Shown piece after piece: positions 3-2,611 of a DNA stretch of 56,478 nt. The DNA is taken from positions 1 through 56,478 of the forward strand of contig LFSE01000038.1 in assembly GCA_001513075.1 (NCBI GenBank). The letters run 5' to 3'. This stretch comes from Clostridiales bacterium DTU074. GTDB taxonomy: Bacteria > Bacillota > Clostridia > Caldicoprobacterales > Caldicoprobacteraceae. The notes under the pieces are model-generated. The model saw only the letters and a list, made by a program, of their open reading frames with translations. It was not told the DNA's origin and searched no databases. Position 1 is the first letter of the stretch, and each line of letters starts with the position of its first letter. The position numbers and the translations under genes are program-made.

Positions 3-383
3 CTTGATCAGATAAAAGAAATATGTGCTTTTCTTGAAGAACAGGAAGACCTGCTTAGGAAAAGGCATATAGCGAGTACAAATATAACACTGGAATACTG
101 CGAGAATTCCGTGATTCAATGCAGCGGGAGTATTACCGTCATGGGGCGGGGAAGTTACAGGTCAAATCTGATTGCAAAAAATCATATATTGCAAAAGAGA
201 GCAGATGGTGTGGTAATAGGAGGGGCTCTTGTAGCCGGTAAGATGATAAAAGCCGGAATTGTAGGCTCTACCGCTGGTATAAAAACTTATTGCAGGATTC
301 TTGATGCCGATGGCAGTTTTAAGGCTACCCAATGTCATCTAAATACAATAATAAGGGTTGGTGAACAGGTAACAACATATTAG
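3..383 (+). CDS. DUF342 / FapA-like polymer-binding protein, C-terminal part (5' end outside window)
   Basis: The frame is open from the left edge to a TAG at 381-383, so the gene begins before the window. The visible 126 residues start with a charged, probably coiled-coil stretch and continue into short hydrophobic strands with regularly spaced glycines (GVVIGGALVAGKMIKAGIVG, then GSTAGIKT). This is the pattern of the right-handed beta-helix of DUF342 (FapA) proteins, which in Firmicutes are cytoplasmic and linked to flagellar or surface regulation. The family call rests on this glycine/valine pattern only. The first in-frame start codon inside the window (111) is not taken as the gene start because coding continues upstream of it. 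Confidence 0.72.
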   Translation, partial: LDQIKEICAFLEEQEDLLRKRHIASTNITLEYCENSVIQCSGSITVMGRGSYRSNLIAKNHILQKRADGVVIGGALVAGKMIKAGIVGSTAGIKTYCRILDADGSFKATQCHLNTIIRVGEQVTTY

Positions 384-480
384 GAAGGACAGCAGAAGTA
401 GTTGTCATACCATGCGGATGACTGTTTCAGAAAACTCATTTATCGTATCTCCTAATTGATAACATTAAGGAGCCTAAGAA

Positions 481-858
481 TTGGCTCATTTTGAAATGGT
501 GGGCTCCATGGTGTACCAGTTGATGAAGGGAGCTTGTCCGGAGGAGATTAAATTAGCCGATGTCGGAACCTATTATGCCGATCACGACAATGCCGTGTAT
601 CCGAGCACGGGAACCGGTGTACCTTTTACAGCAGCCTATATTCAATCCAAAGGGGATCCAATAGCGGATCTTCATGAAAATCTGGCGGCCGAGCAGAAGG
701 CCAGGGCGACATACGAGCATCTTATCAATTTGGCTGATGATCCAGATGTGATCGATCCTCTGAGATTCTTGCGGGAGCGGGAGGTCGTCCATTTTCAGAG
801 GTTCGGTGAGGTGCTGCAGAAGGTACGGGAATACCTGGAGTCAAAAAAATATTACTGA
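481..858 (+). pseudogene. cotJC: 5'-truncated CotJC-like spore coat manganese catalase
   Basis: The 125 residues match the C-terminal two thirds of CotJC, a roughly 190-residue spore coat protein of the Mn-catalase (ferritin-like) family. Diagnostic pieces are AYIQSKGDPIADLHENLAAE, ARATYEHLI and LREREVVHFQRF, the last holding the C-terminal metal-ligand Glu and His. The first about 65 residues are absent. The Glu of the usual EELAH motif is encoded by GAA at 478-480, just ahead of the TTG used as start, but a TAA at 475-477 precedes it, and stops at 460 and 466 close the frame further up. An AAGGAG at 467-472 sits 8 nt before TTG 481, so a short product could still be made, without the N-terminal metal ligands. 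The usual partners cotJA and cotJB are not present in the window. A decayed gene or an assembly join are both possible. Confidence 0.78.
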
Positions 859-970: not shown

Positions 971-1168
971 ATGAGTTTCTTTGGTGGCAGAAGATTGGGA
1001 GAGGATGATAGCTTGCTCTTTTTCTTCCTACTGCTGGTGATCATATTCTGTAATTGCGGTATATTCAAGGAGTCCGATGAATTATTGTTCTTCTTCCTTA
1101 TCCTCGTAGTATTGTTTAACAATGATTGTATATTCCGAGGATTTGGAACATCTTCCAGCGAGAGCTAA
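971..1168 (+). CDS. Small hydrophobic two-repeat protein, copy 1 (predicted spore-associated)
   Basis: A 65-residue protein starting at ATG 971 after an excellent AAAGGAGGT. A short GGRRLGEDD head is followed by two tandem copies of a 22-23 residue hydrophobic module: DSLLFFFLLLVIIFCNCGIF and DELLFFFLILVVLFNNDCIF. Each module could span a membrane or form a sticky hydrophobic helix, and each ends in a Cys/Asn-rich turn. The next gene (1416) is a paralogue. Over 45 aligned codons the two differ synonymously in 19 codons and change only 3 amino acids, which shows selection on the protein. I do not recognise a named family. The SigmaK-like promoter and the adjacent coat gene remnant suggest a mother-cell or spore-surface role, which is inference. 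Confidence 0.82.
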   Translation: MSFFGGRRLGEDDSLLFFFLLLVIIFCNCGIFKESDELLFFFLILVVLFNNDCIFRGFGTSSSES

Positions 1169-1188
1169 AAAACTGGCTGTGGTAAGCA

Positions 1189-1225
1189 GGGGGAGTGCCG
1201 CTGAATGCGCGCTTCCTCTTTTTGC
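1189..1225 (+). terminator. Intrinsic terminator after small gene copy 1
   Basis: A 10-bp stem with G-U pairs, GGGGGAGTGC at 1189-1198 against the arm at 1209-1218, is followed by CTTTTTG. A related hairpin follows the second gene copy, so the whole unit of promoter, gene and terminator was duplicated. Confidence 0.55.
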
Positions 1226-1340
1226 TTTCTAAAAAAGCAATAATTCCGAATGCCGAACTATGCTCGAGTGTCCTGCTGCAAGTATAGTCGGTTTTGTTAA
1301 CTGGATAACTTCAGCAAAAAATGGATATTATTCAATATTC

Positions 1341-1368
1341 ACAGTATTTTATACTATAGCATATATTG
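1341..1368 (+). promoter_or_regulatory. SigmaK-like promoter of second small hydrophobic gene
   Basis: AC at 1341-1342, 17 nt, then CATATATTG at 1360-1368, matching the element before copy 1. The flanking TATTCACAG-like sequence is shared with copy 1, while other intergenic bases have diverged. Confidence 0.5.
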
Positions 1369-1415
1369 TAGTGAAGGTGCATTTAAGTTACTATTCATGA
1401 AGGAGGTATTGACAT

Positions 1416-1610
1416 ATGGGATTTTTTGGTAGGAGAATGGGCCAAGACGATGATAGCTTACTCTTTTTCTTTCTGCTGTTGGTGATTATATTCTGCAATT
1501 GCGGAATATTCAGAGAGTCAGATGAGCTGTTGTTTTTCTTCCTCATCTTGGTGGTCTTGTTTAATGGAGATGGCATTTTCAGGGGGATCAGGGATTCAAA
1601 AGAATGCTAA
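1416..1610 (+). CDS. Small hydrophobic two-repeat protein, copy 2
   Basis: A 64-residue paralogue of the product at 971-1168, starting at ATG 1416 after AAGGAGG. It has the same plan: a GRRMGQDD head, module DSLLFFFLLLVIIFCNCGIF (identical to copy 1), module DELLFFFLILVVLFNGDGIF, and a short polar tail ending in Cys. The second module has lost the Cys found in copy 1. Differences in the core are almost all third-position changes. The gene has its own SigmaK-like promoter and its own terminator, so it is an independent unit in tandem with copy 1. Function unknown; a spore-envelope or mother-cell membrane protein is my best inference. Confidence 0.82.
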   Translation: MGFFGRRMGQDDDSLLFFFLLLVIIFCNCGIFRESDELLFFFLILVVLFNGDGIFRGIRDSKEC

Positions 1611-1668: not shown

Positions 1669-1771
1669 TTATAAGATTATCAAAACGGGTAGTGAAAGGT
1701 TGGTAAAAGAATCAGAATCCGTTAACATAAGCGGCAGTCCGCCATCATAGAATGTGATAGGGGGTGGTGGG

Positions 1772-2611
1772 ATGACATACTCCAGCCGTTATTTAAGAAT
1801 TACCGATCCCTTAATGGAGGGTATCGATGTTACCAATATCCAACAGCGTCTCAGCGAACTAGGGTTCTATGATGGCGAGATAACCGGGGTATATGATAGA
1901 CAGAATGCCGAAGCAGTCCGGAATTTTCAGCAGCAAAACGGTTTGACGGCTGACGGCATTGTAGGACCAAACACATGGAATGCGGTTGGTATAAGCTCGG
2001 ATTTGCTCCAATACTTTAGCACTGAATATAATATTACCATTGACATCGAAGAGAAGGAACTGACCCTGAGACAAGGCGAACAAATTATAAAGGTGTATCC
2101 TGTGGCGGTAGGAAAGCCTTCTACCCCAACACCTACTGGCAACTGGAGGATTATCCAAAAAACACTGAACCCGGGAGGACCCTTTGGAGCCCGATGGATG
2201 AGATTGAGCGTGCCCTGGGGAGGTTACGGCATACATGGTACTGATCAGCCTGAGAGTATAGGTACTGCAGCCAGCCATGGATGTGTCAGGATGCTCAATG
2301 AGGATGTTATTGAGCTATATGACATTGTACCCCTCGGAACAGAGGTAAAAATAACCGGGATTACTGTTACCGGCAGGACCTTGTATTTAGGTGTACAACC
2401 GGGAGAGGATGTAAGGAATGTACAGGAGATTCTGCAGGAGCTCGGATACTACGGAGGGCCAATAGATGCGGTATACGACGAAGAGGTAAGGGATGCAGTT
2501 CTTGAACTTCAAAAGGACTACGGCTTGATACCGGACGGAGTGGTAGGACCGAATACATATGAGATATTGGGAAAGCTTGGGGATATTTTGGTTAATAGTC
2601 AGGAACCCTAA
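1772..2611 (+). CDS. L,D-transpeptidase (YkuD domain) with two peptidoglycan-binding domains
   Basis: A 279-residue protein. Residues about 10-70 are a PG_binding_1 domain (QRLSELGFYDGEITGVYD, ending DGIVGPNTW). Residues about 90-200 are a YkuD catalytic domain with the HGT and SHGCVRM motifs; the nucleophile is Cys171. Residues about 210-275 are a second PG_binding_1 domain ending DGVVGPNTY. Such enzymes make 3-3 peptidoglycan cross-links. There is no signal peptide or membrane segment, which is unusual for a wall enzyme but is also known for the Bacillus spore enzyme YkuD. I place the start at ATG 1772, right after GGGGGTGGTGG, rather than at GTG 1754, which lies ahead of that site. It follows the spore-type genes and has its own terminator. 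Confidence 0.9.
   Translation: MTYSSRYLRITDPLMEGIDVTNIQQRLSELGFYDGEITGVYDRQNAEAVRNFQQQNGLTADGIVGPNTWNAVGISSDLLQYFSTEYNITIDIEEKELTLRQGEQIIKVYPVAVGKPSTPTPTGNWRIIQKTLNPGGPFGARWMRLSVPWGGYGIHGTDQPESIGTAASHGCVRMLNEDVIELYDIVPLGTEVKITGITVTGRTLYLGVQPGEDVRNVQEILQELGYYGGPIDAVYDEEVRDAVLELQKDYGLIPDGVVGPNTYEILGKLGDILVNSQEP

Follow-up and report, generated by a model that had tools for sequence, protein, structure and literature searches.

Two small paralogous genes of a clostridial genome encode tiny proteins with two hydrophobic segments each, which in our moderately confident reading are membrane hairpins produced by the mother cell at a late stage, under sigma-K control, and placed in the outer spore envelope. 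The genes lie in the window, a stretch of 56,478 nucleotides which is the entire contig C114 of the 2.56 Mb draft genome of Clostridiales bacterium DTU074 (G000), a member of the same family as Caldicoprobacter. The relatives compared include G003 (C. algeriensis TH7C1), G004 (C. oshimai DSM 21659) and G006, a Caldicoprobacter relative. The protein family is nearly confined to endospore formers and apparently expressed late in the mother cell, and hence is a probable building block of the spore envelope; the window proteins are probably such a missing block. Knowledge of the clostridial spore coat is patchy, and gene callers and proteomics readily overlook tiny hydrophobic proteins. The sequence signature, the promoter signature and the host range define together a testable late mother-cell gene set in about 15 families.

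Both genes reside on the forward strand, at the positions given in the first-pass annotation. Gene 1 (971-1168) encodes a 65-residue protein with a C-terminus of the FRGFGTSSSES type, gene 2 (1416-1610) a 64-residue protein of the GIFRGIRDSKEC type; the matches to the family HMM have E values of 2.5e-24 and 7e-26, respectively. Each protein has two motif copies (LLFFFLLLVIIF / LLFFFLILVVLF), the hydrophobic blocks being LLFFFLLLVIIFCNCGIF and LLFFFLILVVLF. Both reading frames start with ATG, shortly preceded by the ribosome-binding site AAGGAGG (955-961 and 1400-1406, both forward). Further upstream are found promoter-like elements of the form CAC-N17-CATATATT, at 883-910 for gene 1 (AC 884-885, CATA 903-906) and 1340-1367 for gene 2 (AC 1341-1342, CATA 1360-1363), both on the forward strand. 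On the same strand, fold predictions place a probable intrinsic terminator downstream of each gene, a long G+C-rich hairpin followed by a T run at 1188-1225, and a long hairpin with a T run at its end at 1627-1672; a simple terminator scanner listed neither. Having its own AAGGAGG, promoter-like element and hairpin with T residues, each gene looks like a complete single-gene unit. No further copies were found in the G000 genome.

The two proteins are 85% identical over the matched part. In 44 gap-free core codons, compared by the Nei-Gojobori method, 24 codons are identical, 17 feature synonymous changes only, and 3 amino-acid changes; an earlier count had given 19 and 3 over 45 codons. Synonymous sites are saturated (20.3 of 27 changed), nonsynonymous sites little changed (5.7 of 105; Fisher p = 6e-13). 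In five genomes of the window's family dN/dS is at most 0.12 wherever dS is unsaturated, which is far below 1, and no value near 1 was observed. The proposal that the protein sequence is held by purifying selection is thus confirmed, for the pair as between genomes. Similarity between the repeats, which are offset by 445-457 nt, extends over 40 nt of the promoter (80%), 38 nt encompassing the ribosome site and start (71%), and 141 nt of the coding core (79%). Judged from this alignment, the duplicated piece is the whole unit, made by promoter, ribosome site and start, and coding core.

The duplication had been regarded as old in the first-pass annotation, and for the window pair this view is right. 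Two paralogue types, one ending with RDSKEC, the other with STKES or SSSES, can be traced through the window's family, so the duplication is probably older than the genus split. The view has to be qualified elsewhere. In Caldicoprobacter (L083, 6315-6970) the two types are found in the opposite order relative to window positions 971-1610. In C. oshimai dS between the two copies is 0.43, and between the first copy and its G006 counterpart 0.81; since the copies are closer to each other, gene conversion is suggested, with partial homogenisation of the C. oshimai copies.

A profile (A1) built from 47 sequences was run against 392 sampled genomes of the class, and 40 have relatives. Two of the 40 are doubtful, G173 (E 8e-4) and G269 (a match inside a 586-residue frame), and the result is unaltered by them. 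The family is carried by 20 of the 22 genomes of the window's own order, and spreads over about 15 clostridial families, including the cultured Caldicoprobacter and Alkaliphilus; weak matches were found in 4 genomes of the phylum outside the class. The 100 distinct members measure 31-86 residues, lengths which depend on start codons picked by the ribosome site. According to the pattern used, 76 members have two blocks and 23 have one. The block consensus is S-L-L-F-F-F-L-L-L-V-x-x-F, present in one or two copies per protein. Four positions of the first block are identical in 99 of 99 copies, and Phe/Leu exchange at the others is very rare, though the pattern by which the blocks were gathered fixes part of this invariance; the unselected alignment of the 47 sequences has 15 invariant columns. 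A single base separates Leu from Phe codons. As hydrophobic residues normally replace one another with ease, the near-invariance of the Leu/Phe block points to specific assembly, rather than to mere greasiness. The block is followed by C-x-C in 68 of the 100 members, and many short members with a single motif are rich in Gly and Cys. Gene arrays are common: five genes are arrayed in G058, four in Alkaliphilus peptidifermentans, and some genomes have five to six copies.

The lack of a recognised family name, pointed out in the first-pass annotation, holds for the whole set. Scans of Pfam and NCBIfam with the 47 members at E 0.1 gave no meaningful match, and those with the window proteins, and with 8 proteins mostly of a single block (E 10, filters of HMMER switched on), chance-level matches at most. 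A profile search of PDB returned a weak match to a chain 4 helix of NDH-1 alone (E 0.02), and profile searches retrieved no clear match to a characterised non-spore family. Text searches of the literature, on the peptide as well as on spore proteins that are small and hydrophobic, found nothing relevant, nor any proteomic data from purified spores. By these comparisons the family is previously unnamed and undescribed, and neither Pfam nor NCBIfam has a model of it. Another kind of tiny hydrophobic protein, marked by a W-IIIII-LLxFF block (for example MPEAKWDGGFFWIIIIILLIFFFVPMINEK), adjoins some family members (L155 at 1247 and 1892; L156-L158), and the W-IIIII-LLxFF and LLFFFLLLV block types occur together in one protein in L124-L126.

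The SpoIVA ATPase, used as a marker of endospore formers, was sought in the same 392 class genomes. The family was found in 39 of 290 SpoIVA-positive genomes vs 1 of 102 negative ones (p = 5e-5); outside the window's order, all 20 family-bearing genomes are SpoIVA-positive (p = 0.0014). These p-values overstate independence, as sampled genomes are related. The sole negative carrier is G010, a draft genome of 92% completeness. Three GTDB families (f5, f47 and f48) contain both kinds of genome, and in each a sampled genome lacking SpoIVA is devoid of the protein family, and a relative bearing SpoIVA has it; all 4 further genomes of the phylum with the family have SpoIVA. Hence 39 of the 40 carrier genomes of the class are SpoIVA-positive, and the family is near-confined to endospore formers. 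It is absent from 251 of the 290 SpoIVA-positive genomes, and therefore not essential to sporulation in general.

Promoter sequences provide a second link to sporulation. In C. difficile, sigma-K and sigma-E promoters have similar -10 boxes, and are told apart by the -35 box, AC for sigma-K and ATA for sigma-E (PMC3789822); the spacing in B. subtilis sigma-K promoters is compatible with that observed here (PMC517825). Regions upstream of 100 family members were scanned. AC-N17-CATA precedes 45 members and AC-N16-CATA 27; most other spacings, like shuffled sequence, give about 5. Taken together, AC-N15-17-CATA marks 74 of 100 members, vs 11.8 +/- 3.3 in shuffles, and is present in 15 of 17-18 taxon groups. 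Conservation extends to unselected columns, as the eighth position of CATAnnnT is T in 61 of the 74, and C precedes AC in 57. With CAC fixed, the base 5' of ATA is C in 52 members and T in 7, vs 1.8 and 3.3 in shuffles. The two-box motif AC-N16-19-CATAnnnT was found upstream of 62 of 100 members, vs about 7 of 100 other genes at the same loci. Both window genes carry CAC-N17-CATATATTGT, which fits a -35 AC and a -10 CATA...T at about 16-17 nt. As a control for sigma-E, the -35 ATA was sought and is not enriched (2 seen vs 3.8 expected). The G000 genome has an unbroken sigK. We infer a sigma-K-type promoter ahead of about three quarters of the members, both window genes included, and hence late mother-cell expression. 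The genes had been put forward as candidates for spore or mother-cell proteins, a suggestion that these promoters and the near-confinement to SpoIVA genomes strengthen.

One may argue that the promoters are merely sigma-K-like, and that the genes encode ordinary membrane proteins of growing cells, for instance if sigma-A reads TTCACA-N18-TATATT; a sigma-A-like scan does score 10/12 at 1338. This we regard as very improbable. Conserved throughout the family are the C of CATA and the AC at its fixed distance, but not a TATAAT reading; strict sigma-A sites precede 0 of 100 members, and sigma-A is rejected as a family-wide explanation. The region has 8 sigma-A-like sites vs 5.7 in shuffled sequence, close to chance, and the restriction to SpoIVA genomes also speaks against this reading. 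Very improbable, too, is a tandem type I toxin, whose small hydrophobic product would be kept in check by antisense RNA. The proteins are tiny, hydrophobic and encoded in tandem, but the sigma-K promoter is conserved in sequence and spacing, constraint is strong across saturated synonymous divergence, and the family is tied to sporeformers. No Rfam antitoxin RNA was found in 800-1800, where an antisense RNA outside Rfam is possible, and one member used as query had no match on 72,556 plasmids.

The sigma-K-driven membrane hairpin is the reading that we prefer. AlphaFold predicts, with moderate confidence (core pLDDT 73-80, mean 66, pTM 0.41), a hairpin of two helices spanning residues 11-29 and 35-59; Foldseek searches of PDB with this model gave no match. 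Hydropathy reaches 2.3-2.9 over 17 residues. The hydrophobic stretches measure about 16 residues only, which is short for a membrane helix, and are flanked by acidic residues, as at membrane interfaces. Each gene would be transcribed alone, late and in the mother cell, from its own sigma-K-type promoter. The protein is predicted to form a helical hairpin, with acidic residues in the turn and ahead of both segments, and to insert into a membrane that faces the mother cell; the likeliest one is the outer forespore membrane beneath the coat. Once there, or in adjacent material, it may have a structural role: the near-invariant LLFFFLLLV faces would pack on one another or on a partner, the frequent C-x-C may permit cross-linking, and the outcome would be a hydrophobic layer or anchor within the outer spore envelope. 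Gene arrays would provide a high dose, consistent with a structural role. A bolder version, to which we give little credence, is that the family is an unnamed spore-envelope class of Clostridia, in which the LLFFFLLLV face is almost invariant, despite the one-base distance of Leu and Phe codons, because the sigma-K-driven hairpins self-assemble into a defined proteolipid layer that separates the coat from the outer forespore membrane.

The nearest rival to the membrane hairpin is an aggregating protein of the coat or crust, in which the blocks would stack as beta or amyloid-like material cross-linked by C-x-C disulfides, rather than form membrane helices. Sigma-K timing and SpoIVA restriction fit this equally well, as do the shortness of the F/I/V-rich blocks, the frequency of C-x-C, and the many Gly/Cys-rich members with one motif. 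The helices predicted by AlphaFold and the acidic borders of the blocks argue against it, and so do the members in f33, which have no C-x-C following the first block; we deem it rather improbable. Less likely still is a late lysis protein, a holin-like hairpin permeabilising the mother-cell membrane for spore release. Such a role would suit the size, the pair of hydrophobic segments and the late timing in the mother cell, but no holin family was matched in the Pfam and NCBIfam scans, single-segment members of 31-50 residues exist, five to six copies may reside in one genome, and no conserved lysin partner was found at the loci examined.

In C. oshimai the pair is part of the order cotJB, cotJC, pair, short-chain dehydrogenase, YkuD/PG-binding protein; a likely cotJA lies just upstream of cotJB, both genes being assigned by eye. 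The order in the window is the same, minus the dehydrogenase. The 3' part of cotJC, coding for a Mn-catalase-like spore coat protein, is found at 476-858 (forward; Pfam Mn_catalase, E 7e-31), and a gene with PG-binding and YkuD L,D-transpeptidase domains at 1754-2611 (forward), a neighbour conserved in Caldicoprobacter. Outside the window's family neither cotJ nor another coat operon directly adjoins members at the loci examined, nor is there a common conserved partner gene. A gene for an MGDG-synthase-like glycosyltransferase lies directly downstream of a member in five f3/f4 loci (L088, L091, L095, L097, L137).

The cotJC gene of the window lacks about the first 60 codons, and has the crossover core AAGAAT at 476-481. 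The 5' part resides on contig C100, beside a gene for a large serine recombinase of 525 residues. A single contig of G006 carries both halves, separated by 8,069 bp in which the gene for a different large serine recombinase (544 residues) is found; the inverted arms of this element, GATGAGCAATAT(T/C)GTTAACGAT, surround a shared ATAGGTAC, and ends of the same kind were found in C. algeriensis. The gene is intact in G004 and G005. Joining the flanks at the shared core restores a cotJC of 190 codons in all three split genomes (G000, G006 and C. algeriensis; window 476-858, L151 863-1066, L150 1307-9945, L082 4398-6420, L152 9067-9276). As read from the assemblies, two unlike large-serine-recombinase elements, one in G000 and the other in G006 and C. 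algeriensis, interrupt cotJC at the same few codons. Halves with a cut at codons 61-66 are also seen elsewhere in the order, in G010, in G013 and, as a second copy, in G026 (fragments from other families: L163 1152-1532, L164 2-211, L166 4-198, L165 1138-1587). In G010 and G013 the GAAGAAT core coincides with contig ends, which a mixture of integrated and excised forms would produce. Considering the analogy to skin, gin and similar elements excised in sporulation (PMC5595907), the cotJC elements are probably skin-like developmental intervening elements, with predicted excision in sporulation. An earlier report of cotJC as a target of such elements was not found in the literature searched, of which coverage is partial. 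A single instance of a sigma-E-like promoter (AATATT-N15-CATATAGT) is seen in L151 at about 2770-2800, some 125 nt before the G000 recombinase gene (1078-2652, reverse), and would fit mother-cell-specific excision. A truncated FapA-like beta-solenoid gene lies at the contig edge (window 3-383), just inside the right end of the element.

Three known systems come close to the family. Coat operons of the cotJ type (CotJC, CotCB, CotD) are sigma-K dependent in C. difficile (PMC3789822), a dependence that the pair would share, and in C. oshimai the pair lies directly 3' of cotJB-cotJC; it differs in having separate promoters and in being unrelated to CotJ in sequence, and family members elsewhere do not adjoin cotJ. 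Small two-segment holins resemble the predicted hairpin in size and hydrophobic segments, but the family has no holin match, includes single-block members, and is not accompanied by a conserved lysin gene. YjcZ-type proteins, such as the product of B. subtilis yjcZ, are very small and carry a hydrophobic block, like the members of the family. In B. subtilis, yjcZ is part of the sigma-K regulon (PMC517825); the sigma-K-type motif precedes 74 of 100 members of the family, whose expression may depend on sigma-K too. In contrast to YjcZ-type proteins, no member matches a curated Pfam or NCBIfam model for tiny sporulation proteins, and the family, found here in Clostridia, is marked by the LLFFFLLLV motif, in most members arranged in two blocks.
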